Shown: piece by piece, positions 10,783-30,739 of the stretch | How positions within the stretch are numbered: the first letter of the stretch is position 1 | How the letters are laid out: every line of letters begins with the position of its first letter | Source of the DNA: Agelas oroides | Lineage: Eukaryota > Porifera > Demospongiae > Agelasida > Agelasidae | Assembly (NCBI GenBank): GCA_949130485.1 | Contig: OX422196.1 | Span: 4,322,889-4,386,888 of the forward strand | DNA: 64,000 nucleotides | Direction: 5' to 3' | Notes under the pieces: model-generated | Databases searched by the model: none | Told to the model about the DNA's origin: nothing | The model's input: only the letters and a program-made list of their open reading frames with translations | Translations under genes and position numbers: made by a program

Positions 10783-10788
10783 GATGAC
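10783..10788 (+). repeat. 6-bp target-site duplication, left copy
   Basis: GATGAC immediately precedes the inverted-repeat end TATGGGGGG. The identical hexamer follows the right end at 30734-30739. Confidence 0.8.
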
Positions 10789-10862
10789 TATGGGGGGGGG
10801 GATCAGTGTCAAAATAGGGGGGTGTAATCTGGAGGGGGTAGTTTCCAAAAGTGTAGGAGTAT
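10789..10862 (+). repeat. Left terminal inverted repeat of the IS3EU-like element
   Basis: Begins TATG plus a run of ten G in all, then ATCAGTGTCAAAATAGGGG. It matches the complement of 30664-30733 with few mismatches, chiefly in G-run length. Confidence 0.85.
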
Positions 10863-10864
10863 TA

Positions 10865-11195
10865 CGTTGAGAGGGGGTAGCTACACTTCATGTTGAGAGG
10901 GGGTGCACTTCATGTTGAGAGGGGGTACTCTTTACGTCAAGAGGGGGTGCGCTTCACGTCGAGAGGGGGTGCGCTTCACATCGAGAGGGGGTGCACTTCA
11001 CGTCGAGAGGGGGTGCACTTCACGTCGAGAGGGGGTACTCTTCACGTCGAAAGGGGGTGCACTTCACGTCGAGAGGGATACACTTCACGTCGAGAGGGGG
11101 TGCGCTTCACGTCGAGAGGGGGTGCACTTCACGTCGAGAGGGGATGCGCTTCACATCGAGAGGGGGTGCACTTCACGTTGAGAGAGGGCGTGGCA
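10865..11195 (+). repeat. Subterminal array of ~21-bp GAGAGGGGGTG repeats
   Basis: About 14 degenerate copies of a unit like cttcacgtcgagagggggtg follow the left inverted repeat. The array gives overlapping open frames in all three forward frames (LHVERG, FTSRGG, TSRREG), which are by-products of the repeat. At the right end of the transposon, related GAGAGGGGGTG and ATAGGGGGTATA motifs occur in inverted orientation (30558-30650). Subterminal arrays of this kind often bind transposase; that role is an inference here. Confidence 0.85.
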
Positions 11196-11278
11196 ACATA
11201 GCATGTGATTTCACAATATTGCAAATGTGGGTGTGGTTAAAGGTGTGGCTTTCATGGCAGTCAAAATCACACTGAATA

Positions 11279-12900
11279 ATGAGTTCCTGGGCAATAAGAA
11301 CCTTGAGAAGAGTGGCTACAGATTTGAGAAGTTATCAAGATGGAAGAAGAATACCCTTGGGTGTGGTTGATGCCTTTACCATCTCTTTGGAGCTGGTATA
11401 TCTAATAACTGGAGATCAAGAATATGAAGTGGTAAGACAAGCTCTTAGATTCTTAAGGAAGCTTCAAGATGAGCCATGCCCCACACATGAAAACCACACA
11501 CCTCCATTGCTGCACACAGGGTATGTTGGTCGTCTAAAATTTGAGATTTCATGTGGGCAGCTGACATTCCTGATTGAGAGCAGATTCAGTGCTCCTCAAA
11601 TAGCATATCCCTCAGCACTATCAGGAGAAGAATGGCTGAATATGGACTGTCAATAACAGCTGAATATGCAACATTAACAGATGAAGAACTTGATAGTGTG
11701 GTAGGAGAGATTCATCATGATTTTCCCATGTGTACAAATAGACAAATGCAGGGCCATTTGCTGTCTCGTGGTTATAAAGTTCAGCAGCAAAGGGTCAGGG
11801 AAGCTCAACGGAGAGTTGATCCAGAGGGTAGTCTAATGAGGCGTCTGCGTGTTGTGAATCGGCGGCAGTACCAAGTGCCTGTACCACTTTCCCTGTGGCA
11901 TATTGATGGTAACCACAAATTGATAAGGTATGTATGTTCATGTCATTACTATAATAGGTATACAATGTGCATAAGCAGGGTAGCCATGAAGGAAAGGCAT
12001 ATCTGAAGGTTGCATTATTTATTGAAGGGTAATTTTGTTTTATTATTGCTGGCTTTATTTGCAACAGGTGGCGATTCATAGTCCATGGTTGTATTGATGG
12101 CTATAGCAGGCGAATTATGTATCTCAAATGTTGCAGTAATAATCGAGCCAGCACAGTGTTGAGCCTTTTCTTGCATGGCATTGATCAGTTTGGTTTGCCA
12201 AGTCGAGTCCGTTCAGACAGAGGTGGAGAAAATGTGGATGTTGCTGCGTATATGCTTGATCATCGAGGGCTCGGAAGGGAAAGTTTCATCACTGGACGTA
12301 GTGTTCACAATCAGAGGATTGAGAGGTTATGACGTGATGTTTTCTGCAGTTGTACAATCTCATTCTACAACCTTTTCTACTTCATGGAAAGCCAGGTTCT
12401 TCTTGATGTGGACAATGAAGTGCACATGTTTTGTCTTCATTATGTGTTTATGCAGCGAATAAGCAATTGTTTGCGTATGTTTACTGATGCCTGGAATAAT
12501 CACACTTTGTCATCTGAGGGAAACCTCTCACCAATGCAACTATGGATCATCGGTCTTGCTGGAAACACCGAGCAGGACATACAACTGACACAGGTAAAGT
12601 TGGTACTGGCCACTTTCATACAACCATGTCAAAAAAATCATTGCAGTTGATCACTTTGTTTAGGGAGAGATGCAACATTATGGAATCAACTGGAATGGTC
12701 CCATGCCTGATTGTGAAGAAGAGGTAGACCAGGTAGTAGTTCCAGAGTGTGATTGCCCACTTTCTCCGGAAGACTATGACGACCTTGAGTGTAGTATCTC
12801 TCCTTCAGCTGCTAGTTCAAACTATGGAATAGACTTGTATACCTCTGCTGTTGCATTTGTGGAAGCAAAGATGACTCAGTATATATATATAGACAGTTAA
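11279..12900 (+). pseudogene. IS3EU-like integrase/DDE transposase, three exons, two lesions
   Basis: Exon 1 (about 11279-11927) contains an HTH-like region (LKFEISCGQLTFLIESRFSA, RRRMAEYGLSI), a regulatory-looking stretch (LTDEELDSVVGEIHHDFP) and the first catalytic Asp in LWHIDGNHKLIR. Exon 2 (12068-12593) has [20 protein letters not shown], the second Asp in [12 protein letters not shown] and the Glu in [10 protein letters not shown]. Exon 3 (12664-12900) carries the tail (YGINWNGPMPDC, ECDCPLSPEDYDDL). Introns 11928-12067 and 12594-12663 are GT-AG and keep phase. Lesions: a one-base shift at about 11605-11630, and TGA at 12330-12332 where the family has Trp (RLWRDVF). Known role: RNase H-fold strand transfer for its own transposon. 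It sits directly inside the left terminal repeat, as expected for the element's own enzyme. Confidence 0.88.
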
Positions 12901-13262
12901 TCTCGTCATCTATTCACACGCACATCCCAGCAATGTGATGGAGACATTAGTCATGTATTTGGAGGGAGGCCCTGGACCAGAGCTCTGCCCGTCAGTTAAT
13001 CATGATGAGTACATCATCACTTACCTGCAATTAACTTATTACCAAGGATATCAAACCATTTGTATGCCCTCCATTTTGGGGGGAAGGTTAATGGGGGCCC
13101 AAATAGGAGTCCCATCCGGTCCAGGGAGGAACTTGTTCCTCTCCCCCAAAACGTACTCTTATCCTTCCTTCTTTTATATAATATATATATATATACTATG
13201 GTGCGTGGGCGGATGAAAGGCGCCGCATGGGGTCATATATGGCATATAGACCGCGCAGCTGC

Positions 13263-13387
13263 GACCGCAGGGAGTATATTGCTGAGTCAGGGGTGTATAT
13301 TTCAACCGCAAGGGAGTATATTGCTGAGTCAGGGGTGTATATTTTCAACCGCAAGGGAGTATATTGCTGAGTCAGGGGTGTATATTT
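13263..13387 (+). repeat. Three tandem ~42-bp repeats
   Basis: Unit contains ccgcaagggagtatattgct followed by gagtcaggggtgtatat; three near-perfect copies in a row. Confidence 0.9.
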
Positions 13388-13925
13388 GGCAATCAGTCAT
13401 AACTGCAGCACAAAGAAACGGAAAACTTTTTGTTTCGCAATGGAATGGCCAATTCCCCCCAGTCCTCACTATAGTCTATAGGAGAGCCATTGCCAGCACT
13501 ATAGAGCCCCCGTACTCAGTACTAGCACAACAGCCAAAGCGTCGCACAAACTTGCCAGGTTATTCGTGCAGCGATAGTGCTTACTTGGTGTGTTGAACCA
13601 CGCACGGCTGGACAGACGCTACTGCTCTCCGGCAGCTAGCTGGCACTACCCTGACGGATGCTGACGATAATCATGAATTTCACTCGCCAGGCGGTTGATC
13701 CAGGGATAGCGCTAGGACAACTGCTAGCTGAACTGTGAGGCTGGGCGTTCTACTGCCAGCTCGAACCATTGTTTCATGATCGCCAGCTTCCGAGAGCGGC
13801 TAGGTAGCAACCTAGCTGCCCATCGGCATCATGGCCGAGCGCCAGTAGCATCTCGGTTTCAAGTCGACACGAGCGAAAGGCCCTTCGTCATGGCTCAGAC
13901 TCTGCCTTGACTGCAGAGATGTTTC

Positions 13926-13946
13926 GGGGGGGGGGGGGGGGGGGGG
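13926..13946 (+). repeat. G21 homopolymer
   Basis: Twenty-one consecutive G. Homopolymer length is often mis-called, so exact length is uncertain. Confidence 0.9.
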
Positions 13947-14097
13947 TCTTTTGGTCGCCTAAGCGTACTAAAACTCATCCTTTTCCAGTCAAAAAGCAGC
14001 AGCAACACACAACGAAACGACATTCAAATTCAAAAATGCAATACCGGAAACGGAACCGCTTACGTAATCCGCCCACGCACCATAGTATATATTATAT

Positions 14098-14276
14098 GAA
14101 CCATGGTAAGGCGGTGTATATCGCGAATCATACTACCCTCGACCTCGGTCATCGGAAGTTTGCAGTTAGATATACCCCTCGCCTGCGGCTCGGGGTGTAT
14201 CTACTGCAAACATCCTCTGACCTCGGTCTCGGGTAGTATATTCGCCATATACACCTCCTTACCATGGTTTATATAT
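14098..14276. repeat. Foldback element: ~180-bp near-perfect palindrome
   Basis: The whole segment pairs with itself around a centre near 14185. Outer arms accatggtaaggcggtgtat and atacacctccttaccatggt pair with one change. Inner arms include gacctcggt on both sides of aagtttgcag/ctgcaaac, and the core is CCCCTCGCCTGCGGCTCGGGG-like (14173-14193). It abuts the TIR element on the left and the gypsy LTR on the right. It has no coding capacity and would form a long hairpin. Confidence 0.85.
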
Positions 14277-14278
14277 TA

Positions 14279-14445
14279 TGTAACGCCGCTGTGGGCTAGC
14301 GTGGTTAACTGACTGTTATTCTTAGTCAAAACATTATCGGCAAAACAACAGACATACGACTCAACATAATATTTCTGAGGGACTGACTGCTGAGTATAAA
14401 ACTCACATACTTAAACTAACTTCCGGATTACATCACATAATTACA
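14279..14445 (-). repeat. gypsy 3' LTR (left copy)
   Basis: Begins TGTAACGCCGCTGTGGGC and ends CACATAATTACA in + orientation, so the ends are the canonical TG...CA. Near-identical to 19914-20081. Confidence 0.95.
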
Positions 14446-14462
14446 ACACCCGCCTCCTAATC
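14446..14462 (-). other. Polypurine tract of the gypsy element
   Basis: On the minus strand, gattaggaggcgggtgt lies immediately before the 3' LTR, the expected plus-strand primer position. Confidence 0.6.
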
Positions 14463-14605
14463 AGAAGGACGGCCTCGTACTTCGTATATTACAAACAAAG
14501 AAAAGAAACATGAAGCATAATCAAAAAAAGTTACAAAACTTGACATTAGCTAGCTTACGTGTACAAACCAGGATAACAATAACAACTAAGTCAGTCACTC
14601 ACGGT

Positions 14606-17600
14606 TCAAGTTTTACGAGTTTTCTTAGTCTGGCGTTTTCGTCCCAGCCAAGACTTATCAGGTAACTCCACTGGACACAGGGTCACTCGATCCAAATTAA
14701 CTCGGATAGATTTATCATTGGGACGGTCAACTGGTCGAACCGTGACGCCATTTGGATGTACTTCCAACACCCGATAAGGGCCAAAATATGGCCTGGAAAG
14801 CTTTCGATTCTTGCCCGTTTGCTCATAGGGCATATACACCATTACCCTGTCACCAGCTCAGAAATCTCTCTGCTTAGCGTGGCGATCATATTGGTACTTC
14901 TGCTTCTTTTGAGACCTTTGAATCTCTTTCCTGGCCAATTGCCAGGCCTCAGATAGCCCAAACACCAACTCTGACTTATAGTCATCAATATCGACTTGAT
15001 ATGCAGTGCGAGTTGTGGATAACGTGGTCTCACAGGGAATTCTAGCATCACGGCCATATAACAGGAAAAACGGTGACTCACCAGTGGATTCATGGGGTTT
15101 AGTTCGATATGCAAATAGCAAATGATGGAGGTGTTCATCCCAGTTCACACCAAACTTTGCAGCATATTTGGCAAGCATGGCCCTCAAAGTTCTATTGAAA
15201 TTCTCCACTAACCCATCAGCTTGGGGGTGATAAGCCATGGTATTCAACTTCTGCATACCGGTCATCTCACATACCTCCTGCATTAGAATTGACAGCAGAT
15301 TGGGGCCACGATCAGATATCAGAGCTTCAGGCACCCCATGCCGACATATCACATGATCAATCAGCAGCCTCACAATGGTCTCACTTGTTTGGTTATCTGT
15401 GGGAAATGACTCAACCCACTTGGTGAGATAATCGACAAACGATATGACATAACGGTTGCCATTCACTGTTTGTGGAAGCTCCATGATGTCCACGCCGACA
15501 CGATAGAACGGTCCTCCCACTGGAATAGGCATCAGTGGTGGCCTCACTCTCCTCCCTGTACCTCGATAGCTGGCACAAGTCAAACAGCTTCGACAGTACG
15601 CATGAACATCCTTATACATGCCGTCCCACCAGTACCTCTGGGCTAACATGGAGTACACTCCTTTGGGTGAAAAGTGTCCAGCAAACCTCCCACCATGTGC
15701 TTCTTTCATGAGTTCTCTTCTCATACACACGGGTACACACAAACGCAATCTGTTCTTCCTCAAGTCATCAATCCGATACAGCACTTTGTCCAGAACCACA
15801 TACCGACATTTCTCAAGAGTTAATCGTCTAGCAATACTCTCCTCAGGTGGTAATAGTCCTTGTTCCAAGAAAGTCACTACCGGTCCTAGCTCTTTATCCT
15901 GACGCTGGAGTTTCACCAGTTCCTCATTCTCCTCTGTAATCCCTTCACTGTCACTTACATCAGGAACAACTGCTCCCACTTGCACAGAATGAAACGCTTC
16001 GTCATCATCCTCCAACTCAGACTGACTGATGGGTGATCGAGACAGTGCATCAGCATTTGCATTTTTGCGTCTGGGGCGGTACTTCACTTCAAGATCAAAC
16101 TCCGACACCACTTCTCCCCAGCGAGCCAGTTTGCCAGAAGGGTGCTTAGTCTTCAAAAGAGATTTCACTGGAGCATGATCCGTGTAGACGATACACTGGT
16201 GTCCATAGAGGTAAGCACGAAAGTGTCTTAAGCTCCACACCACAGCCAAAGTTTCCAGTTCCGTAATTCCATACCGTTGCTCATGCGGTGACAAGGTACG
16301 GCTGGCATAGGCAATTGGATGATTCTTCCCATCAGCCTGCTCTTGTTCTAGGACTGCTCCCAGACCCTTGCCACTGGCGTCTGTGTGCAACACAAATGGC
16401 TTCAAGAAATCAGGGTAAGCAAGCACTGGGGGTGATGTGAGGAGCTTCTTCAACCGACTAAAAGCCTCCTGACAGGATTCTGACCACACAAATGGAACAT
16501 TGGCTCTTGTCAACATGTGCAGTGGTCCAGCTTCCTTGGCAAAATCAGGCACAAACCGCCGATAATAACTTGCCAAACCAAGAAACTCCCTCACAGCTCT
16601 GACATTAGTAGGGGTAGGGAACTCTTTGACCGCCAAGATCTTGTCCGGGTTAGGAAGAATTCCCTCAGCAGAAATAACATAGCCTAAGTAAGGCACTTCA
16701 GGACAACCAAGAACACACTTCTGAGGATGCAACTTTAAACCCACCTCACATAGACGGGAAAACACTTGGCGCAAATGTCCAATGTGCTCGTCAACATTCT
16801 CTGAGAAGACCAAAACATCATCAATGTAAACACTGCAAAACTTGCTCATCCCCACCAGGGCTCTCTGCATCAATCTTTGAAAAGTTGCTGGTGCGTTGCA
16901 GAGGCCGAAGGGCATAACTCGAAATTCATACAACCCATCAAATGTGACGAAGGCCGTCTTCTCCTGGGATTCTTCTTGCACTCTGATTTGCCAGTAACCT
17001 CGTTTGGCATCCAAAGTGGTAAAGATGCTCTTGCCCTTGAGCTGATCCAATAGGTCATCAATTCTGGGGAGTGGGAAAGTATCCTTGCGGGTCACAGCAT
17101 TGAGTCGCCTGTAATCTACGCATAAGCGTAGTGCCCCATCTTTCTTTCTGACAAGGACCACCGGACTGGCCCATGGACTCGCTGACTCCTGGATCACTTC
17201 CCCCTTCAACATTTCCTGAACCATCCTGGATATCTCCTTCCGCAAAGCGAAAGGTACTCTTCGAGGTATCTGACGTATGGGCTGGCTATCTGCAGTGTCA
17301 ATCACATGTTCAACACCTTTAGCCTCACCTCTTTCACCATCATCCAATGCAAAAGCAGCATGAAACTCAACAGCACAATCAATCAGTTTCTGAGCTCGCT
17401 CTTCAGTGAGATTACACTGGGGTGTCTGCAACATTGACGTCAACTTCCTCTTTCGTTGTTTGTCAGATTCTGAATAGGTAGCATAAATGCTTGCTGCACA
17501 GGCACTCTCGAGCTGTGAAACCTGCAGGTCTATCTCAGACTCTTCACACAAAGTACCTTCGCTCTCTGACAGTGCCACCACACTCCCAATGGGAACGTTC

Positions 17601-18721
17601 GGTTGCAACTCAACTGTCCCGGTAGAGTGGTTGCTAACAGGTATCCAAATTCGACCTTCAGCATCAGAGTGAATCACGGAGTCCTCAACTTCCACTCCCA
17701 TCGAAGCCATCCAGCCTCGGTTAGGCTCAAACAATAGTGAGCTAGACGGTAATGTCTCAACTTGTGCTTCCAGAAATGTTCCTTTCTGGCTAGGCACCCT
17801 CTGTGAATGCACCAACTGAACAATCGCAGTGAAATTGGATCTGTCATCCCCTCTACATGGTTCCACTCCAACAGCTGGGCACATCAGACCCAAAGGACCA
17901 ACAACATTTGTCCCAAGCAGACAGGGTTCTGATCCAGCGTGTCTTGCAGCTCGCAAGTAAATAGGGACAACAACACTCTTCCCACAGAACTCAACCTCAA
18001 GGTCTACCATTGCTCCCACCAAGATAGGCCTCTGACTGTAGTCACGCAAAGTAACTTCAGGCTTATACAGAGCACTCGCTGGAACCTGGGCCTTTCTGCC
18101 AATGGCTTGAAATACATCCCATGAGAGGATAGTCGCCGACGAACCGGTATCTACCATGGCCTTGACAGGCTCTCCTGCAATGTTCACCGTGCAGTAATAC
18201 AAAGGACCAACAGCCCCTGCAACTTTGTCAACGTTGGCCTTCCCTTCATAGCCCTGAGAAAGGAGCAAGAACTCAGCATCAACCCACTCCTGCCTTAGCC
18301 TTTGGCATCGATCTTCCAACGTCTCATGTGAGTGGGTGGCCGAAACTGCTGAACTGGTTGCTCGCTGACTTACTCTGTTCTTTCCCGGAGTCTCGCTAGG
18401 TGGCTTGCGTTCTGGGCAGTCACGCCAATGGTGACCAGGTCCACGGCACTCATAGCATAGGCCAGACACTTTGCTCTTTCTGGGTGCAGTATCTGGCCTA
18501 GCCAGCCTAGGCTCTCTCTGAAATGTTACTTGAGTCTTCTGTGTCCTTGCAGTGGCCATGGGTTTCACACTCAGGTTCAACTTTGTACCTGACCCTGAGC
18601 AATGGAGACTCGAGAGCTGCTTTTCCTGCTGCTCAGCTGCACGAGCTTGGTGCAATGCATCATGGAAGGTCTTGGGTGACGGTAGCACCTTCTCCTGCCA
18701 CTTCAACCACAAACCTTGCAC
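14606..18721 (-). pseudogene. gypsy Pol polyprotein (plus gag nucleocapsid), one stop near C-end
   Basis: One open frame of about 1287 residues (to 14858) contains the gag CCHC zinc knuckle (CYECRGPGHHWRDC), aspartic protease (MVDTGSSATILS), reverse transcriptase (ending in YIDDVLVFS), RNase H (LHTDASGKGLGAVL), the integrase zinc region (paired His in HGGRFAGH, CRSCLTC) and the integrase core (VDIMELP, ISDRGPNL, HPQADGLVENFNRTL). A TGA at 14858-14860 separates the last 78 residues, which include the GPY/F module (YFGPYRVLEVHPNGV). The stop lies in QRDF/AGDRV, consistent with CGA to TGA. The frame begins without an ATG because gag shifts into it at an A8 run (18722-18729 on +). Apart from the stop, the enzyme region is intact. 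Confidence 0.93.
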
Positions 18722-19803
18722 AAAAAAAATCTCTTTTCAGCATCTCCTTGCTGCTCTCATCCATTCCCTTCCTGCGTCCATAGCTACGCTCAAACAACTT
18801 CTCCAAATCTTGTGCAAACTCGTCCACAGATTATTCGGTTGCTGCTTGCGGCGCATCAGCTGAGCCGACACCAAGGCCTCTCTCTCTACTGGATTCAGCC
18901 TCTCCTGTAGAGCCTCTGTTGCCTTAACATAGCTCTCCTTGACATGGCTTGGCAAAACCTCATACACACGCTCAGCACGTCCAGCCAAATGCAACTCAAA
19001 CTGGACCAACTTTTCCCGCTCAGTCCAACACTGCAGCTCAGCATGCTTCTCCAACTTGGCCAACCATCTCTTTAACGAGTCAACATCATCCCTGTCATCA
19101 CCACTAAACTTTGGTAGTGCAGGAAGTTTCAAACGATTAGCACGGCTAAGGTCCTCTACAGCCTCTGGCTCATTTGACCCGCCTCCTGAGCTGTGCGATT
19201 CCCGTCCATTTATGACGGAGACCGTGTGCTCACCACTGCGTGGTTTTAGGGAACCCTCAGACACTTTAGCTTTCAACAACTCAATAAGCTCATCACGTGT
19301 CTTAATATCCCTCTTATACTTTAATTCAAGCTCTTCCCTCATGCTTTCCCGAACCTTCAACAACTGATACTCAAAGTCCCTTTTCATTCTATCCATCTCC
19401 CACTGTGAACGGTCCAAGGACTCTAAGGCATCGTCCCGGCATCCTCTAGATCCCTTATCAATGAACCCACCTCTAAATCGTCGGGTCCGCCTTCCGCGGT
19501 CGTACCTGCACGGCTTCTCGACTGGGCTTCACGCAAAGAAGCTTCGAGATCCTCCACCTTGTCTTGTGCAATAGACAATTCGACTGTCGCCTCATTCAGC
19601 TCCCTTTCCGACTCCGTGGCGCGTCGACGCAGCTCCGCCACCTCCTGCTTGAGACACCGTTCCGACTCTTGCAGCTTCCGTTCGGACTCTCTCGCTGAGG
19701 TCACCTCAGCTTGGGTTTTTGCTTGAACCTCTGCTAACTCCTTCTTAGCCTGTTCAAGTTCGTCTCTTAGCTGAGTCTTTGTCTTCTGCGGCATCTTGTT
19801 CAA
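18722..19803 (-). pseudogene. gypsy Gag, broken by frameshifts
   Basis: The N-terminal 126 residues (ATG at 19803) are a long coiled coil rich in Glu, Lys and Arg. After a one-base shift near 19423 the protein continues with more coil and the capsid-like region (LKLPALPKFSGDDRDDVDSL, LHLAGRAERVYEVLP). A second shift occurs near 18835, and a third at the homopolymer 18722-18729, where the frame joins the CCHC/pol frame. This length of N-terminal coil is unusual for Gag. Because the LTRs are nearly identical, some shifts may be sequencing errors rather than decay. Confidence 0.85.
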
Positions 19804-19895
19804 GTCGCTCTGGGATTTCCGGCCTGGCTACATCGACTCGCGGCGGGATAGAGAGGCAAAGTTCCGAGTATGCCAGGAATCACTTCGCTGTAGTC

Positions 19896-19913
19896 TCGGC
19901 AACGACCTCCAAT
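19896..19913 (-). other. Putative tRNA primer-binding site of the gypsy element
   Basis: Two bases after the 5' LTR the minus strand reads tggaggtcgttgccga, starting with the TGG that pairs with a tRNA CCA end. The tRNA is not identified. Confidence 0.5.
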
Positions 19914-20081
19914 TGTAATGCCGCTGTGGGCTAGCGTGGTTAACTGACTGTTATTCTTAGTCAAAACATTATCGGCAAAAACAACAGACATACGACTCAA
20001 CATAATATTTCTGAGGGACTGACTGCTGAGTATAAAACTCACATACTTAAACTAACTTCCGGATTACATCACATAATTACA
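19914..20081 (-). repeat. gypsy 5' LTR (right copy)
   Basis: Begins TGTAATGCCGCTGTGGGC in + orientation and ends AATTACA. Differs from 14279-14445 by C/T at the sixth base and one extra A. Confidence 0.95.
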
Positions 20082-20159
20082 ATTACATATAATGTTAGTG
20101 TGTGCATAAATGGTACCACGTAAAACACAGTAGCTATTAGCAACCATACAGAGTAGTGT

Positions 20160-20932
20160 CTACTGGTGTACAAGTGCAACAGAGAATTGAGCTAGATGTT
20201 CTCTTGGAGTACGGATGTATACAAGGAAGGCCGCACTGTTCCATCTTCCCAGTGTGCGTATTACTGAATCCTCAATGCCTGCTCTCGCAGCTGACGTGGC
20301 AGCTCCAATACGGAAGCTGTGACCTGCGAAATTCAGATATGGAAGGCCTGCTGCTTGTAGTGCTGTGCGGACATGTTGGGTGAATTTTGCCTTTGTCAAT
20401 GGTTGGCCAGTCTTAAATTGGAAGAAGGCACCCTCCTGTGAGCCCCGGGAGGCCACGTAAGCTAGAGTTGCAGCCACAGGGCAGAAACTGATCAGTCTTA
20501 GAACACGTCAGCTTTACCCTCAGCATTGTTGGATTATCTACCACTACATCTAGGCAATGATGAAAAGGCTCTTGGTTTTGGCAATCCTAAGGTGATCTGC
20601 ATGTGGCGGATGCCTGCCAGATATGTTTTAATAGTCTGTGGTGATAAGGTCTTGCATGCAAGATAAGATGAAAAATAACACAGTATGGATTCTGAAACTG
20701 GAAATGGTGATATAATAGAATATAATGAACAAAACTCAGCAAATTTACACAGTGCCGACTGGTAAGTTGACCGGGTTGATGGAGCTACTCCCTGAGAACA
20801 AAAGCAGTGAACTGTTGCATCCAGGTTGGAGAGGTCCCTTCCTGGTTGCTGAGAAGCCACTGCAAGAGTGAAATTGGAAGAACGGATGACACCACGTTTG
20901 CATCTGGCTTCTTTAAAAATGATGGCAACCAA
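20160..20932 (-). pseudogene. DIRS-like tyrosine recombinase, internally deleted
   Basis: The N-terminal SAM-like part reads STRSTYQSALCKFAEFCSLY and TLSPQTIKTYLAGIRHMQIT. The C-terminal catalytic part reads AGHSFRIGAATSAA, TLGRWNSAAFLVYIR, with the His-x-x-Arg pair and the nucleophile Tyr region present. The segment between about 20530 and 20480, which should hold the first catalytic Arg block, is missing, and the two parts lie in different frames. Known role: circularisation and integration of the DIRS DNA form. Confidence 0.85.
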
Positions 20933-21950
20933 TTTCTAGAGAGATCATCTGCCAATCTGTTGTGCAGGCCTGCAACATGTGACGCTGATATTTGAAACTG
21001 GAGGTATGCCTCCACAAAAAAAACAAGCAGCACAGCTGTTGCATCATAATCTTATCTTGGCAGTATCGCCGATTCACGACTGCTACCACTGCAGAATTGT
21101 CACAGTAAGCCACAACCCCTAGCTCCACGCAAATTGATTTCAATTTGTGCAAATACAGCATGCAGGTATCTGAGTCTGGAGGGCCTACTACTGAAAAATA
21201 TGTTCACCCCCTTCTCTCGCAACACACCATTCCACGGCATCAGCCACTGAATTAAAGATTTTTGGGGCTGATCTCAGGCCAAATGGGGAGCATCCCATCA
21301 ACATATATTTTGTTGTCCCACTTCATGCCAAGCCATTTGCGATCCCCTGGGTAGACAGGAATAAGGTGATATGCCGACTTAATGTCAGTCTTGGCAATCA
21401 TAGCTCCCCTTCCTAAAACTAATGCTGTAGCTGCAACTTGGTCCACTGTTATATAAGACATGGAGCATAACTCTGGATTGATAGCATCATTTACACTGCG
21501 ACCTTTGGGGTAAGAAAGGTCGGTAATAATCCTCCATTTCCCTGGTTGATACTTTTTTAGGAATTACCCCAATTGGTTAACATGTACTGGGGGTGCTGAT
21601 CCTGGTGCAAATGGTCCCAGCATATTCCCTTTCCCGACTTCAGCGTGCAGGTACTCTTCAATGACCTGGGGGTTTTGTCTTGCTGAAAGCATGTTCTGGG
21701 TTGCTGATTTAAACTCCCTGGTATCGTGTACCCCTATACGGAAGCCGTACTCAATACCACTCAGAATATACTTTTACATAGTCCTGGTCTGGGTGCTTCT
21801 CCAATTTCCTCTTCCAAGCTGGCAAGGACAACGGAGTTAACAACACTGAGATCTGCTGATCCACTGATGAGGCTGTTGAGTGTGCATGCGAATTCAATGT
21901 CATGAAGTCCTGAGCGTAGTGGTAACGTCCGTCCAGCCCTGTGAACATAC
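20785..21950 (-). pseudogene. DIRS-like reverse transcriptase and RNase H, frameshifted
   Basis: From 21950 downward are LPAWKRKLEKHPDQDYVKVY (a DIRS linker motif), IITDLSYPKGRSVNDAI, MIAKTDIKSAYHLIPVYPGD (first RT Asp block) and, after a shift near 21290, PFGLRSAPKIFNSVADAVEW. The catalytic YLDD box is not recognisable: the aligned bases read like IFFSVVGPP. The RNase H part follows (LGVVAYCDNSAVVAVVNRRY, SHVAGLHNRLADDLSRNW). Several stops and shifts are present. Confidence 0.82.
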
Positions 21951-22080
21951 AGTAACGACTATGATCATTTTATTTGGTATGAAATCTGTGATAAATCAAC
22001 AATGCAATAGCCATAAACCTGCTACGAGGTAAACCACATCCCCTGTGAGGATGGGTGATCACACCACATGGGCGGAGATT

Positions 22081-23962
22081 TTACAGAACTAAAAGAAAAC
22101 AAAAACCCAAGCACAGAAGTATTAGCCAAAGAAACCAATCAGCAGTTACTGTAGATGCATAATGGAAAACAAAATCGTTCCTGAGTGTGTTATCCCTGAT
22201 GTTATCTACTTTCGTCCCTTTCTTGCTGGTGAGTCCGATTGAAGCAACTTGGGTGGTGGTGTCCTGGACCTGCACTGTGAGGCTGGGTGAGAGCCTCGGC
22301 AAACAATGCAGACATGACCAAATCTGCAAGGGTTAAAGCGGCATATATTGCCCGCCTTGTTGTTGAAGAGATGAAAATTGGGGTGTATGGCATCTCAGGG
22401 GCATATGTACACTCTGATGAGATGTGATGCTCGCTTAGACAAAATTTACATCGAGCTATGGGTTTAGCTATATCCACCTGTCCCCAGTCCAGTGACTTCG
22501 TAATCGCTCCCTTCCTTCAGTAACAGGAGTCATATGTCACCCATCCATCTCCTGAGAAGGACCGGTAAGCCCTCACAATTGTCTTCTGATATACCATCAA
22601 CTCGGGTGTCTTTTGTGGGAAGCCTGAGGACAGTACCACCACCATAGAGGCATAGCATTAATTCCAGAACAGTATGTCTGTCACCGGCCCCCTACGTAAG
22701 CGCCTATTCTGGTGACAGCATTTGTTCTGTTCCTCATCTTGAAACCTCCAGCTGTCCGAAACAAGCTCTGCCATGTCTACATACTCTCTGTCAAGAATCC
22801 TCTTGACCAATTTTTCTGGAAGGGGGAAGGAATAAGGAGGCCCTTGCTGTGAAGGTGGGTGTAGATGGTGTGGCCAGGGGTATGAGGCTCGCAATGGACG
22901 GTGCTACTGCTCTGTGGGCATGCTTACCCAACCAGCACTCCACCACATGGCATGCTTGCCTGATCTGTGGGCATGCTTACCCACCTGGCACTCCATCACA
23001 TGGCATGCTTGCCGGATCTGTGGGCACGCTTACCCATCCTGCTCTCAGGCTTGTAATCATGCTTGCCTGATACCCATGAACAAGCTAACCCAACGAGTGG
23101 ATGGACACACAGGCATGCTCGCCTATTATGTGAGGGCACCTCTACCTGACTGGTGAATGCCTGACGTTTGGGCATGCTTTCCCAACCATCCACTGCATAG
23201 GCATGCTTGCCTGTCCTTGAGCATCCTTACCCAATCTGCTATGTGGGCATGTGTCTGGGCATGCTTACCCACAACCAGTCACATAGGCATGCTTGCCTGT
23301 TGCCCTTGAGCATGCTTGCTCAATCAGCGGACCATCACTTCAGTATGTTTGCCTCCATATATGTGGCCATGATATGCTTCCCCCCTTTCCCAGTGGTCCA
23401 TCTGAAAGGCATGCTTGCCAACCTGAGTGATGCATGCTGGTCACTCCCTTATACAAGCATATTCAGCTCCCATTAACTTTTGTCAATTTGCTTGGTTGTG
23501 CATTCTTGGGGGGGCATACTTGCTGACACGTCTCATGCTCATGGAGGACCTAAAAGCCTGTATTAATATTCTACCCGGATATGGGTTATGGTTTCCTGGC
23601 TGTCCATTCAGCCTTCTCCCCGCCGTAGCCCTTGACGCTAGACATAATGTAACTTGCATCCTTCCATTTCCGGCCCCGTCTTTTTAACTATTATGCTTCT
23701 CACCCTTTACTCCCCCTCCCATTTTAACTGAATACTCACCAATGGCGCCATGAACTGCTGTTGTAGCTGCCGTGACCGTGGTGCCCGATGAAGTTGAGCC
23801 GACGGAGGCGCCTGAGCTGACTGTGGTGTCAGACGTGGTCGTCACGGTGGAAGTTGGGGCTGCTTCTGAAATCTTGGTGGCAATCAGGCGCTTGATCCAC
23901 GCTTGCTGCGCCTCCGTGAACGAGGGAAGGTCTGTCTCTTCTTGATCTTGCCTGGACATCAT
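22081..23962 (-). pseudogene. DIRS-like Gag, fragmented
   Basis: The ATG at 23962 starts MMSRQDQEETDLPSFTEAQQ and a Ser/Thr-rich stretch. After a gap of repetitive DNA the conserved Gag block continues at 22830 (LPEKLVKRILDREYVDMAEL, RGPVTDILFWN) and then at 22490 (WGQVDIAKPIARCKFCLSEH, a CCHC-like knuckle with HHISSEC). Stops interrupt the frame between the pieces. Confidence 0.8.
22845..23480 (+). repeat. Degenerate tandem repeats around GGCATGCTTGCCT
   Basis: About 12 diverged copies of a 45-60-base unit containing ggcatgcttgcct or ggcatgcttaccca lie inside the DIRS-like element, between the two Gag parts. Confidence 0.75.
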
Positions 23963-24121
23963 TCGCGAATTACACACAATGCTGGAATTTGCCGTGAGTA
24001 AAGAGAAGCAAAAACCGTCTGCTGCTGTACGCGCCAAGCAGAAATGGCGTGGCATGTGCAATGCCTTACTGCACACCTGTCGTACACATGCGCATATACC
24101 CATTATGTATCCACCCACCAC

Positions 24122-24381
24122 ATCACATTAGTGCTTAGACCAGAGCTCCCAGCACCTTGGGCACATTCCTCTATTAACTGCGTTTAATGTTGTACATTAT
24201 ATCGGCTAATTTGCATGCAATAATCTTAGAAACTTATATATGATGTTTGAAACTGTCCATCAAAATCATGCTATAAAACCCAAGAGATAATTTGTCCATA
24301 CTGTAAGCTTGTCGTAAGGAGGATGATATACAAACAGTTACTATTACATATGTACAAACAACAGACCCAAGACCTACTGCA
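24122..24381 (-). other. Spacer between DIRS-like element and HECT gene
   Basis: AT-rich, no coding signal. It probably contains the boundary of the DIRS-like element and the 3' flank of the HECT gene. Confidence 0.4.
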
Positions 24382-27300
24382 CTACGACAGACCAAAGCCA
24401 CCATGACATATAAAAGCCAGGCCTAGGACAGATTTGAAAGGAGGATAATCTGTATACTTGGTTGGGAGGGTCAACTGTATTGCACATGTTGAAGCTGTTG
24501 GGTACAGAGCATCAGTTGAGCACTGGATCATGAGGAAATCCAAGAGGAGGCATCTCTTCTGCCCCAATAAAAAACGCCATTATCATTGGTAAGGTGACTT
24601 TACCTGGAATGCGTATAGAAGGTAACAAAATAATACAGGAGAGTTTGAAGCTAAATTTAAGGTTTATGTATTAGCTACAGTTGTTACATGCTACTGTTTA
24701 TTTTATCACTTTAGTTCCTCATGCTAGCTTGAACTTGACATATCAAACAAACAAGTTAGCTATATCACAAGTACTATATGAGAAACCACACTAAATTCAA
24801 TAACAGATTATACGAAAGGCCAGCATAATGCAGAGAGCTGCATCTGGCTTATACATAGATGCAGAACATAGAAACACCGCTGCTATTTTTATGATCAAAC
24901 ATGTTTCACGCTGACAAAATAAATTGCATGCAAATGGCATGATTTGAACTAGTGCTACCGTTAACATACTTATCTTGTCGCTTTCATCTTGAGTGCAACC
25001 ACCAGCTGCAGCTGCATTTATAGGACAAATGTGCATCACATAAATTCCAGAAGATATGAGGGAGTGCTGAAGGTGATCGAACCTTGCTCACATTCCTCAA
25101 GGTAATCCAGAAACATCATGTAAACATTTTCTTCCTTTTCGCGAGCATTTGAACCTCGTTCTGAGAAGCGAACATCCACAAACAACTTTCGGAAGGCATC
25201 TGCAAAAAGTGGTTAAAACATGAATGTAATCTGATGACATAATTGGGTATATCGTAATCTCCAAAATAGGTCCATTCTCACATGTTAAGCAATTACAAAG
25301 GCAGCTTTAAATATGCCCACTATATTTATGCTAAACAAGAAGTAGTACTTAGAAAGAGGTACGACTAACAAACAAAAGCAGAAAGATCTGCTGCTATGCA
25401 CAAGACTATTAACCTAAAGTTCAATACCCCAAGTATGTATTTTTAAGTTTAGGTGTCACCTGCTGTTAGATTCTGTACTGCTGTGTTGGTAAAGAAAGGA
25501 CTCATCAGGTCAGGATACTCTCTGACAGCATCCAGCACTCCTAATGCTTTTAGACCTTCACAGAACTGATCCATTTCTGCTTTACTTCGTAGTAGGACAT
25601 GATGAAGAGTCACTGTTTGGATCAGCGTAATCTTTTCATCCATTGTGATGCAGGGAATTGCCTTTGTGAACCCACATTCGGTGACTTCAGTACAAAATTC
25701 CATGACAGTGGTTCTGAGGGAGGAGTCATCACTAGTAGCTGCGATCTGGAGGGTATACGATGTATAGGTTTTTAAACCTAAGATGCAACATAGAAGTTCG
25801 TGAATTAACATCTTGTTCACCAATACACCTGGGAAAGATGCACATTATCCATTTACTGTAATCTCCGGAGGAAAAAAGCCCACACTTGAAATGAGCCCAA
25901 CCCAGGTTTGGAATGGAGTTCTTTCTAATAATTCGTAGTGCACCACCCCATTTATGTTGTAGTATACATGCAGTTCTGCAAGAAGCACTGAAGAAGAAGC
26001 ACTGTACAAGAGGAGGAACTACGGCAGACACCATTTGCTGTTAATGCATAAGCAAGCACATGACAAAAGAGGCATTGAAAATTACTGCATGCATACCTCT
26101 CTAGGGGTAGATTAAGTGGGTGTGTGAGGCGGGAGCATTTTCAGAAATTGTGGTACAAAGCAAGTTACAGGACCAAGATGTTCAATTTGTAATAGAGACT
26201 AGCTAATGACATACCTTTTCCAGCATTTCTCTCACGTCTGGGTCAGGTACTTCAGCAATAATGTCAGACACTGGCATGCTACTGAGGTAGCTGTATACTG
26301 AATTGCTCAGACCATATACAGTATTCCCAAACCTCCCTGTACCACAGACATGGCGACCAGTTGACCAATCTGGCGGTACACATATGCCTATTTTAATAGA
26401 GAGTGACTGATGAATTTGTGATGTGACAGATATCTGTATATACGTACGTACCTGAAGTGCAACAGCATTGTGTGTGCTTGAAGCATACAGTCCCATCAAG
26501 GTGAGTGGAAACCACACTCTTCCCAAAGAGTCTGAAGAATTTTCGGGTCAGTCCTCCAGTATCACTACCTGACTCACCGACAAACTCAACCTAACAACAA
26601 CAAACATACATGAATACTACATGAATGTAAAATTTAATAACAGTCACCTTAATCCACTTAGATGGACTGAATTGGTCTCTCCTTGCCCGTTTTAGTCCAT
26701 CTTGAAGCACATGACCTCTTCAAACAACCATATCATAATTTTATGTCTCCGTGGATAAACTGCCGGCTAGCCTTTGAACAATATCAGCAATAGATCTGCA
26801 AGTACAGAATAAGCAAATATTTATAAGTTCCTTAGAAAAATGGTGCATTTATTTGAATGAGCTTATAAAGCATACATAAGAGCAATGAAGTTCAGTTATG
26901 CTTTTGATTTGTGCAAAACCCCTCAAATTTTTTGCTGTTCCATAAATTAGAGTGAATAGGGTAGCTAAAGTTTAGTGACTTCTTAGTAGGTTCCTACATA
27001 AATGAAAAACATTATTTAATTGTTACATGCCAATGGCCAACTTGCATGATGACTTCAACGCCTTAGAGAATGTACGGGGATTTTGTAGTCCTCCTGATAA
27101 ACACCGTTATAACTTGTGATCAACAGTAGCTGTTCGCGCTCTTTTCGCATGCATTGACCACAGCAGAATGTTCTATCTATCAATAGTTTCTAGGCGCTTC
27201 AGACGTTGCGCAACGTTTGGCTAGCATGCAAAGCTATACAAGGCGCTCAAGAGTCCCAATTATAATCGTTACAACTGCCCTTGCAGTTACCTCAAGTTAG

Positions 27301-27403
27301 AGTCAGCGTCAGCAGTAACTTACCTGGCTTGAATAGATCCTGTAGAAGGAGCAGAACCCGCTGCTTCGCCCACATATACATGCACTCCCCATGATTTAGC
27401 CAT
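24382..27403 (-). pseudogene. HECT-domain E3 ubiquitin ligase gene, seven exons, damaged
   Basis: Exons on the minus strand: 27403-27324 (MAKSWGVHVYVGEAAGSAP), 26795-26648 (RGHVLQDGLKRARRDQFSP), 26590-26452 (VEFVGESGSDTGGLTRKFFR, the HECT N-lobe signature), about 26373-26215 (QLVAMSVVQGG, YSYLSSMPVSDIIAEV), 25745-25460 (EKITLIQTVTLHHVLLRSKA), 25199-25083 (FRKLFVDVRFSERGSNAREK) and 24603-24382 (VTLPMIMAFFIGAEEMPPLG, then PTASTCAIQLTLPTKY with the catalytic Cys). Splice phases mostly agree. The product, about 380 residues, is little more than a HECT domain and resembles the G2E3-like family. Damage: TAA at 26741-26743, TGA at 26720-26722, and shifts near 26320 and 24505. Known role: ubiquitin transfer through a thioester Cys. 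Its place inside the IS3EU-like element suggests transposon cargo. Confidence 0.88.
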
Positions 27404-28530
27404 GGTTCAGCCACACTTTGCCATGCCATATTTTAGAGATATAATGACTAAAATTGTACATACAGAACAACAGTTTAACACTGATTGTGCAAGTTCAGCT
27501 GTGCTCTTTCTTGGACAGAAGAGCTCTTCGAGGATTGTCTCTTGGGTCTGCACACAGCACAGTTCATGGTCGCCTTAGTCGGCAGTCAATTTTTGGCCCT
27601 GTGAAAGTGTACAGAGGGGAAGAGAGTCTAGTCTCTGGTTACTCTCTCCAAGAAAAAGCTGCATACCCACATGAAGTACAACAGCATCCCAGCAGCTGCA
27701 ACTAATTTAAATCATACAAATTCAGCTGTAAATCTGGCTTATTCATGCCTTCCCACCCGCCCCATTGCACAAAACAGAAATATTATGCGCAATATAGACA
27801 AAAAGGTGGCTTACAAACAGTTTCAAGACAGAGGTCTTAGCCGTTTTCCAGAAATAGTACAATGGAAGACATCATCAGCTGAACCGTCAGCAGCTTTCCA
27901 GTCAATTAACGCCACTCACCGTACGGCAATACAGCCATCGGACTCGCTTATGAATACACCAACTCTTTGGGTAGCAAATATTAGCACATGGAGACGATCA
28001 GTCTTTCCGCGTAGCAAACTGATGAATCTTCTCAACACGCGTTTGGAATTCCCCATACATTCTCTATGGCCAGCTGCCAAACTTTTACCCCAGCCCTCAT
28101 ACGTGACGTCATCATGCAAGTCGGCCATTTGAGTTCAGTTGAAGCATCAGCAAAGTTTTCTAACATCTCAGTATTTCTATAGCTAGTAGGTGTTTGTTTG
28201 AAATTTTCACTTACAAAAACTTCCCACTATTTGGTAGTATACACTAACCCTGCTTGTGCCTCAACCTTCTTTGTGCACCTGCTTAGCTGCAGGCCATAGT
28301 GCAGCATAGCATCATCAACATCCAGGAGCTATAATTATATCCATCCATTTAATTGCAGTGGAGTATATGCTGTTATTCAGTTTGTAGGTATATAACCTTA
28401 ATTCCAACATTGATTTTTTTTTTTTTGCCTAGGTGAGTTTCTTTAAAAAAATAGTGGTTGCATGAGTTCACAACCATTATCACACCCCTGGGGGAAGTGG
28501 TTCAGGTGGTGAATCAGTAATCCACACAAG
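27404..28530. other. No assured gene
   Basis: Upstream flank of the HECT gene. A 153-codon open frame (+, 27671-28132) and a 70-codon one on the other strand (28128-27916) overlap and have no family features. The strand and function of any gene here are unknown. Confidence 0.4.
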
Positions 28531-28539
28531 GCTCAGCTG

Positions 28540-29985
28540 CCCTTCTTCCACTCTGGACTCTTGCTGCTGCCTCTCACTTGCTTCCAGTGGCTGCCTGCTC
28601 CTTTCCATTGGCTGCCTATCACTTGTTTCCAGCGGCTGCCTACTGCTCCTTTCCAGTGGCTGCCTATCACTTGTTTCCAGTGGCTGCCTGCTCCTTTCCA
28701 TTGGCTGCCTATCACTTGTTTCCAGCGGCTGCCTACTGCTCCTTTCCAGTGGCTGCCTATCACTTGTTTCCAGCGGCTGCCTACTGCTCCTTTCCAGTGG
28801 CTGCCTATCACTTGCTTCCAGCGGCTGCCTACTGCTCCTTTCCAGTGACTGCCTCTCACTTGCTTGCAGTGGCTGCCTACTGCTCCTTTCCAGTGACTGC
28901 CTCTCACTTGCTTCCAGTGGCTGCCTACTGCTCCTTTCCAGTGGCTGCCTCTCACTTGTTTCCAGTGGCTGCCTACTGCTCCTTTCCAGTGGCTGCCTCT
29001 CACTTGCTTCCAGTGGCTGCCTACTGCTCCTTTCCAGTGGCTGCCTCTCACTTGCTTCCAGTGGCTGCCTACTGCTCCTTTCCAGTGGCTGCCTCTCACT
29101 TGTTTCCAGTGGTTGCCTCTCACATGCTTCCAGCAGCTGCCTACTGCTCCTTTCCAGTGGCTGCCTCTCACTTGCTTCCAGCGGCTGCCTACTGCTCCTT
29201 TCCAGTGGCTGCCTCTCACTTGCTGCCTCTCACTTGCTTCCAGCGGCTGCCTACTGCTCCTTTCCAGTGGCTGCCTCTCACTTGGTTCCAGTGGTTGCCT
29301 ACTGCTCCTTTCCAGCGGCTGCCTACTGCTCCTTTCCAGTGGCTGCCTACTGCTCCTTTCCAGTGACTGCCTCTCACTTGCTTCCAGTGGCTGCCTACTG
29401 CTCCTTTCCAGTGGCTGCCTCTCACTTGCTTCCAGCGGCTGCCTACTGCTCCTTTCCAGTGGCTGCCTCTCACTTGCTTCCAGTGGCTGCCTACTGCTCC
29501 TTTCCAGTGGCTGCCTCTCACTTGCTTCCAGTGGCTGCCTACTGCTCCTTTCCAGTGGCTGCCTATCACTTGCTTCCAGTGGCTGCCTACTGCTCCTTTC
29601 CAGTGGCTGCCTCTCACTTGCTTCCAGTGGCTGCCTACTGCTCCTTTCCAGTGGCTGCCTATCACTTGCTTCCAGTGGCTGCCTACTGCTCCTTTCCAGT
29701 GGCTGCCTCTCACTTGCTTCCAGCAGCTGCCTGCTCCTTTCCAGTGGCTGCCTATCACTTGCTTCCAGTGGCTGCCTACTGCTCCTTTCCAGTGGCTGCC
29801 TCTCACTTGCTTCCAGCAGCTGCCTGCTCCTTTCCATTGGCTGCCTATCACTTGCTTCCAGTGGTTGCCTCTCACATGCTTCCAGCAGCTGCCTGCTCCT
29901 TTCCAGTGGCTGCCTATCACTTGTTTCCAGTGGTTGCCTCTCACATGCCTCCAGTGGCTGCCTACTGCTCCTTTCCACTCTATCC
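28540..29985 (-). repeat. Minisatellite: ~30 copies of a 48-bp (2 x 24) unit
   Basis: The unit is two related 24-mers, ctgcctctcacttgcttcca+gtgg and ctgcctactgctcctttcca+gtgg; some copies use a 21-base version (ctgcctgctcctttccagtgg). All lengths are multiples of three, so long open frames exist in several frames on both strands. The longest, 493 residues on the minus strand (30014-28533), reads RQPLERSSRQPLEASE repeats and switches frame once near 29215. Expression as protein is unproven. Confidence 0.95.
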
Positions 29986-30019
29986 ACATCCCTTTTTGAA
30001 TGGAGGTAGTTCAATGTAA

Positions 30020-30660
30020 ACTATTGCAAGGTGTTACATTGCTCTATAATAATGATCGTACTACACACCTGTTGTTAGATTACTTAGCCATCAACATTGA
30101 ACGTGGGCAATTAGTATCCAACTAACACAAATCCTTATACCTTTTACATGTTGAAATGTGCTGTCTGAGGAGGGAAAGAGGCACTAGAGCTCCACACGCA
30201 AGGCACACCTCTTCAGGTACAAGCTCGAGGTCCTACAACAAAGTAATAGTCATAACTTGTACCACACACTGTGGCAATGAAATAAAAGGCTGCATGTGGC
30301 CGCCAAATGAGGCTAGTGATTTCACATTTACAAAACACTTGATGAACGACGCTCACTAACAGCATGCCCAGAAGACGCTTGCTATGAGGTATTTAAACAA
30401 ACGAAAATCAACTAAAAGAGGAGCAAGGATGTTTGCTCAAAGGGGACATATTATCGGGAAACTACATTGTATGACATGCAACTTGCACTTACATCAATAC
30501 TGCAAGGAGATACATCAAGGTCTTTCTGCAATGGACGAATGTAGATTTCGACATGAAGTACACCCCCTCTCGACTTAGATTATATCCCCTTTGAGATATA
30601 TACCCCCTATTTTAAACTGTATACACTTCCCAACTTGAGTTATACCCCCTATTCTAAAAT
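30020..30660 (+). other. Right subterminal region of the IS3EU-like element
   Basis: No convincing gene. From 30558 it contains inverted-orientation motifs (taccccctctcgac, ataccccctatt) that mirror the subterminal array at the left end. Confidence 0.6.
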
Positions 30661-30663
30661 GTA

Positions 30664-30733
30664 TACCCCTACACATTTGGAAACTACCCCCTCCAGATCA
30701 CAACCCCTATTTTGACACTGATCACCCCCCATA
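30664..30733 (-). repeat. Right terminal inverted repeat of the IS3EU-like element
   Basis: Complement reads TATGGGGGGTGATCAGTGTC and onward, matching 10789-10862. It ends at 30733 in CCCCCCATA. Confidence 0.85.
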
Positions 30734-30739
30734 GATGAC
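30734..30739 (+). repeat. 6-bp target-site duplication, right copy
   Basis: GATGAC, identical to 10783-10788, follows directly after CCCCCCATA. Confidence 0.8.

Follow-up and report, generated by a model that had tools for sequence, protein, structure and literature searches.

We analysed a 64,000 nt window of the genome of the sponge Agelas oroides (C14:4322889-4386888) and identified in it a transposon that encodes an integrase-fold transposase and, in convergent orientation, a predicted HECT ubiquitin ligase, a type of enzyme that marks other proteins, in many cases for degradation. We interpret this locus as an IS3EU-type transposon, of the cut-and-paste kind and now decayed, that has a HECT ligase as a recurrent second gene (probability roughly 0.88). 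Relatives across the genome repeatedly carry the ligase, and it is therefore better viewed as a recurrent part of the element than as a chance passenger. The HECT gene moves with the element, and in one young family it is open and constrained. The common plan appears to be an inverted end, a transposase reading inward, a convergent HECT E3 ligase gene and a second inverted end. All genome-wide searches covered 259 Mb in 141 contigs.

The transposon copy in the window

The features of the element are as follows (window coordinates).

10783-10788, no strand: left target-site duplication, GATGAC
10789-10870, plus strand: left terminal inverted repeat; the search with each of the two ends gave 13 matches elsewhere in the genome
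10884-11188, plus strand: subterminal 22-bp tandem repeats, resembling repeats inside other copies of the end
11276-12897, plus strand: transposase gene pieces, with rva_4 integrase core, both catalytic Asp residues and one internal stop (broken)
24382-26794, minus strand: HECT ligase gene in exon pieces with stops and frame breaks (broken); 26794-26206, N-terminal lobe (N-lobe); 25844-25452 and 25212-25039, middle; 24670-24382, C-terminal lobe (C-lobe) with the catalytic Cys
30662-30733, minus strand: right terminal inverted repeat
30734-30739, no strand: right target-site duplication, GATGAC

The left end begins at 10789 with TATGGGGGGGGGGATCAGTGTCAAAATAGGGG, and the last base of the right end is 30733. 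The initial annotation of this DNA had described inverted ends about 19.9 kb apart between perfect GATGAC hexamers, and both coordinates and repeat alignment bear this out: the ends (TATGG...CCATA) span 19,945 bp, with a perfect GATGAC on each outer side, and align with one another over ~70 bp with few gaps (a 45-nt arm at 91% and a 27-nt arm at 96%). A 20-bp core of the end occurs exactly twice within the window, in inverted orientation, where 0.01 occurrences are expected; genome-wide, the exact core occurs eight times and its backward control not at all.

The integrase-fold transposase beside the left end and the convergent HECT gene, which had been placed inside the element, are both present, but neither is intact. 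The best transposase exon matched PF24764 (rva_4) in Pfam with an E value of 8e-41, and there is one stop within the core. The HECT gene contains several stops and frame breaks; the five pieces compared with Pfam gave no HECT match individually, but they align with intact relatives, C-lobe cysteine included. The earlier label 'HECT-only' is doubtful, because the relatives have an N-terminal region besides the HECT domain. The matched stretches of the two genes lie 12.9 kb apart with retroelements in between. The description as a ~20-kb transposon holds for the end-to-end length and not for the native size, because ~8 kb of it consists of nested retroelements, which rules out a native 20-kb giant transposon.

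Recurrent pairing of transposase and HECT genes

Searches with the window transposase (77 matches) and with its family (best 150 of 153 matches) defined 115 transposase clusters. Middle-region queries from the window HECT (25 matches) and from the HECT protein of locus L030 (25), together with the L030 C-lobe (16), defined 35 HECT clusters of the window type. Twenty-seven of these 35 had a transposase cluster no more than 5 kb away, where about 0.16 would be expected by chance, and the two genes were convergent in 25 of the 27 pairs and tandem in two. In pairs closer than 5 kb, the gap between the genes was 0.02-2.8 kb, against the 12.9 kb of the window copy. This recurrence rules out a host HECT gene that merely happens to lie between the ends.

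From the transposase side, 15 of 23 near-full cores had a HECT within 5 kb. In the convergent place at locus L049, which was scored as lacking one, lies a HECT middle region that has diverged strongly (profile E 2e-10; no Pfam match), and the slot also contains a weak C-lobe-like stretch (E 0.07). Some families account for more than one cluster, which makes the number of independent lineages smaller; the transposases of the eight paired lineages compared differ by at least 36% at the amino-acid level.

A further 33 HECT clusters came nearly all from a Pfam search (97 matches). Six of them are also paired, and many of the remaining 27 are presumably ordinary host HECT genes. At C1:5431598, a HECT cluster has the transposon-type N-terminal region nearby and no transposase. 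On C7, transposon-type HECT matches with identical scores lie ~100 kb apart (C7:7890808 and C7:7990715), each with the N-terminal region beside it and no listed transposase nearby; they represent either a segmental duplication or a HECT gene retained without its transposon.

A young, complete family

Two complete copies, L030 (C2; 5,736 bp) and L032 (C1; 5,831 bp), are 98.7% identical. Both have perfect 126-bp inverted ends, with target-site duplications of GTGTCA and GATAGT, respectively, and both encode an open transposase frame of 389 codons and an unbroken HECT frame of 636 aa. The latter is a predicted gene model, in which eight exons were joined by GT-AG splicing read by eye. The spliced L030 protein matched the HECT domain PF00632 at 53.4 bits (cut-off 23.9). 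A third copy, L031 (C9), is ~96% identical and lacks a few transposase codons, and its first HECT exon is interrupted by an insertion of ~1.5 kb; in its flank, a related repeat carries the L032 target unfilled, with a single GATAGT. The proposal in the initial annotation that the ligase travels as cargo is supported by these two copies, which carry both genes open, and by the genome-wide recurrence of convergent pairs.

Ratios of nonsynonymous to synonymous divergence (dN/dS) were estimated by NG86 over 547 HECT codons (89 others were excluded, chiefly those preceding the L031 insertion) and 385 transposase codons. For HECT, the comparison of L030 with L031 gave a dN of 0.013 and a dS of 0.039 (dN/dS 0.33), and that of L032 with L031 gave 0.010 and 0.042 (0.25). 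The transposase values against L031 were 0.008 and 0.027 for L030 and 0.007 and 0.023 for L032, with a dN/dS of 0.29 in both cases.

Genome-wide, the L030 end had 18 matches, among them the three copies with HECT. At C1:12936417, such an end adjoins a transposase fragment. Ends of this type at two places on C19, on C11 and on C3 accompany no listed transposase core; those at C19:3985969-3995631, C19:4119408-4129066 and C11:5245926-5265344 are spaced 9.7 to 19.4 kb apart, and it is possible that these C19 and C11 pairs are larger non-autonomous or cargo-bearing copies.

Conserved features of the two proteins

The L030 transposase has helix-turn-helix (HTH) and rva_4 domains in Pfam. The proteins of L030, L029 and L049 all matched PF24764 and PF00665, with an HTH in L030 and L029, and none of the three matched Integrase_H2C2 in Pfam. 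Two catalytic Asp residues are kept in all 14 transposase loci that cover both positions, and the Glu of an RIER motif is invariant in 13 of 13 sequences; from general knowledge of DDE enzymes, we take this Glu to be the third catalytic residue.

The C-lobe cysteine of the HECT protein is conserved in all 17 loci that could be aligned at that position, the window included (the eighteenth, L049, is unaligned there). The best relative among solved structures is UBE3A/E6AP (E 1e-7). The HECT middle region is shared across loci, and an N-terminal region is common to several of them: that of L029 has 20 matching places including itself, at least eight of them beside paired HECTs and some beside unpaired ones. 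Fold prediction for the N-terminal region was poor (predicted local distance difference test score, pLDDT, 34).

The protein database contained 1,412 transposase relatives and, among 7,994 scored candidates sharing most words, a single HECT relative (P0001), perhaps because exons split the gene. A search of viral contigs found no relative. In prokaryote genomes, transposase relatives occurred on three contigs of a Cycloclasticus sponge-symbiont metagenome-assembled genome (LWTN01000118.1, LWTN01000139.1 and LWTN01000127.1; L051-L053), which are possibly contamination from the host sponge; one of the three also encodes a retroelement-like pol frame. No HECT was found on them, but all three contigs stop within 2.3 kb downstream of the transposase match and are therefore of little use for judging pairing.

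Possible function of the ligase

The transposase would act on the ends described here, and the ligase would be made and active, and would serve the element. Of the possible roles, the likeliest is that the ligase works in trans and ubiquitinates a host factor, of silencing or repair, by which the transposon is held in check; we hold this view tentatively, at a little under even odds. A stronger version, in which a branch of IS3EU has the HECT as a long-inherited core gene that degrades host silencing or repair factors, with a swappable cargo slot, strikes us as rather doubtful. If true, it would constitute a transposon-encoded counter-defence that acts via the host proteasome.

Alternatively, the ligase could target the transposase itself, or the complex that it forms with DNA (in turnover, dosage control or product release), and not host defence. 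The recurrent pairing with a transposase gene is in keeping with this. In each of the 36 pairs among nine lineages, however, the HECT proteins were further apart than the transposases, a pattern compatible with a host target that changes over time but also with a ligase under weaker constraint. We consider the transposase an unlikely target.

A second cargo and partial co-inheritance

In the L050 lineage (C4:4207500-4211000), the convergent slot holds an unrelated exon of 140 aa:

L050:1313-1732 (C4:4208812-4209231): alternative cargo exon, also at C11:3019708, C3:3097212 and C2:8051683

The copies at these four places are 95-100% identical, each convergent with a HECT-less transposase core, and a fragment of the exon adjoins a fifth, fragmentary transposase. 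The exon had no Pfam match; it has 13 unnamed database relatives, and its fold prediction was poor (pLDDT 42). The slot can therefore accommodate more than one kind of gene, HECT being its main occupant.

Transposase and HECT trees agree on the groups L047-L048, L040-L044, L030-L036 and L043-L045-L046, and disagree on the placing of the window copy and of L047-L048. The Mantel correlation between the two sets of distances was 0.89 when close copies were included (12 loci), but 0.41 (p 0.015) with nine and 0.32 (p 0.05) with eight dereplicated loci. Because the trees agree on close groups and the correlation is partial, the sequence comparison suggests that long co-inheritance of transposase and HECT is likely in part; exchange between lineages may also have occurred.

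These observations bear on the possibility of repeated, independent capture of host HECT genes as chance cargo, with no role for the element. The unrelated gene in the slot of one lineage and the partial agreement of the trees are in keeping with such captures, as is a copy with young-family ends that shows no HECT match. Independent captures do not readily account for the convergent arrangement that 25 of 27 pairs have in common, for a shared middle region and an N-terminal region shared in several loci, or for a C-lobe cysteine kept wherever it is aligned and a dN/dS below 1. We therefore regard chance cargo as improbable.

Other copies of the window's ends

Each window end gave 15 genome matches, two being the window's own, and together they mark 14 other places. 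We examined 20 stretches around end matches, which extend ~20 kb inward for eight and 10 kb for two and include two short regions bearing two ends each (L025 and L026). L019 and L026 retain pieces of the 5' part of the transposase. In L019, an end that most resembles the right end of the window (89%) immediately precedes this 5' part, which neighbours the left end in the window; both end types thus belong to one family. L025 is flanked on each side by GATTAT if a shift of one base is allowed, and L009 has a second end ~1 kb from the first and no matching duplication in its flanks. These copies seem to be short elements or to have lost internal sequence.

That the two window ends are separate insertions flanking an unrelated HECT gene is hardly credible: their subterminal parts differ, and most related ends elsewhere have no partner in the stretches examined, but the perfect 6-bp duplication exactly at these ends and the link provided by L019 rule it out, and HECT-transposase pairing recurs genome-wide.

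Several results weigh against a HECT ligase as a recurrent second gene. The search for further copies that the initial annotation had proposed recovered the same ends, but tblastn (E up to 0.01) of the 20 stretches detected no transposase core and no HECT. Eight of the 35 HECT clusters, that of the window among them, have no transposase within 5 kb, and eight of the 23 near-full transposase cores lack a HECT by our searches, four of these holding another gene. Accordingly, the contrary pattern that had been named for this proposal, ends without HECT together with HECT genes outside any element, is half seen: fetched copies of the window's ends lack HECT and some HECT clusters are unpaired, but most sit beside a transposase. 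The element with young-family ends at C1:18561892-18569489 (core C1:18564855) had no match to the L030 HECT queries. Both ends plus a duplication were read in two lineages only; for the L029 lineage, ends were not found in the DNA stretch examined. The dN/dS estimates depend on few differences, and L030 and L032 are too close to judge (seven changes in HECT, with dN 0.0020 and dS 0.0094; four in the transposase, with 0.0033 and 0.0038).

Relation to known systems

The IS3EU-like assignment made initially agrees with the published description. IS3EU/GingerRoot elements are characterized, in the main text of PMC10045372, by TA..TA termini, usually 6-bp duplications and an integrase-like DDE transposase without the HHCC motif. 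The window copy, L030 and L032 share TATGG..CCATA termini and 6-bp duplications (GATGAC, GTGTCA and GATAGT, the last with an unfilled site), and the transposases of L030, L029 and L049 are integrase-fold DDE enzymes with no HHCC zinc domain. Unlike the elements found here, those of that main text are presented with no mention of HECT or ubiquitin. Fungal TET-positive IS3EU elements, as described in the main text of PMC12730594, have TAYGG..CCRTA ends, 6-bp duplications and additional TET/JBP dioxygenase and alpha-kinase genes. They resemble the sponge elements in bearing extra genes, with the alpha-kinase oriented opposite to the transposase, and differ in the nature of this cargo and in their fungal hosts; HECT and ubiquitin are absent from that main text.

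The predicted ligase resembles HECT E3 ligases such as UBE3A/E6AP in its N-lobe and C-lobe matches and its catalytic cysteine, and differs in its diverged middle region and in having an N-terminal region of its own. The main text of the Marin 2010 HECT paper does not use the stem 'transpos' (PMC2837046). The giant Gypsy element Burro is described in PMC6431247 as carrying a ubiquitination-linked domain (MATH_TRAF_C); in contrast to the elements reported here, it is a retrotransposon, and the text consulted gives it no HECT ligase. In the open literature we found no IS3EU-HECT pairing; Repbase and Dfam entries lay outside this scope, and prior notice there is possible. By title and beginning of abstract, no HECT-carrying transposon was found among the matches listed.

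The open ubiquitin ligase gene retained by this cut-and-paste transposon offers a way to test which obstacles such elements face in the host. To our knowledge, there are few other cases of transposon-encoded counter-silencing. Such a role is proposed for the fungal TET-positive transposons in the text of PMC12730594. HECT-carrying transposons may also be relevant to other genomes in which HECT genes are multi-copy; the text of a fish study reports a G2E3 match among unclassified repeats (PMC5638112).

Nested insertions and neighbouring elements

Three further features lie between the ends of the window copy.

14279-20082, minus strand: nested Gypsy-like long terminal repeat (LTR) retrotransposon, not part of the transposon, with near-identical LTRs (14279-14446 and 19914-20082) and ATTA on both sides
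about 20163-22516, minus strand: nested DIRS-like element, not part of the transposon, with tyrosine recombinase pieces
28566-29977, no strand: 24/48-bp minisatellite, which adds 1.4 kb to the interval between the HECT gene and the right end

In the DIRS-like element, tyrosine-recombinase matches were around the Pfam cut-off, and reverse-transcriptase and zinc-knuckle matches were below it. At 13189-14282, perfect 26-bp inverted repeats lie 0.85 kb apart and adjoin a further inverted pair; this is perhaps a small non-autonomous transposon nested within the element. Elsewhere in the window, at 40245-42034 on the minus strand, we observed the remains of a Pogo/Tigger-like transposase with DDE_1 and Tc5 HTH domains.

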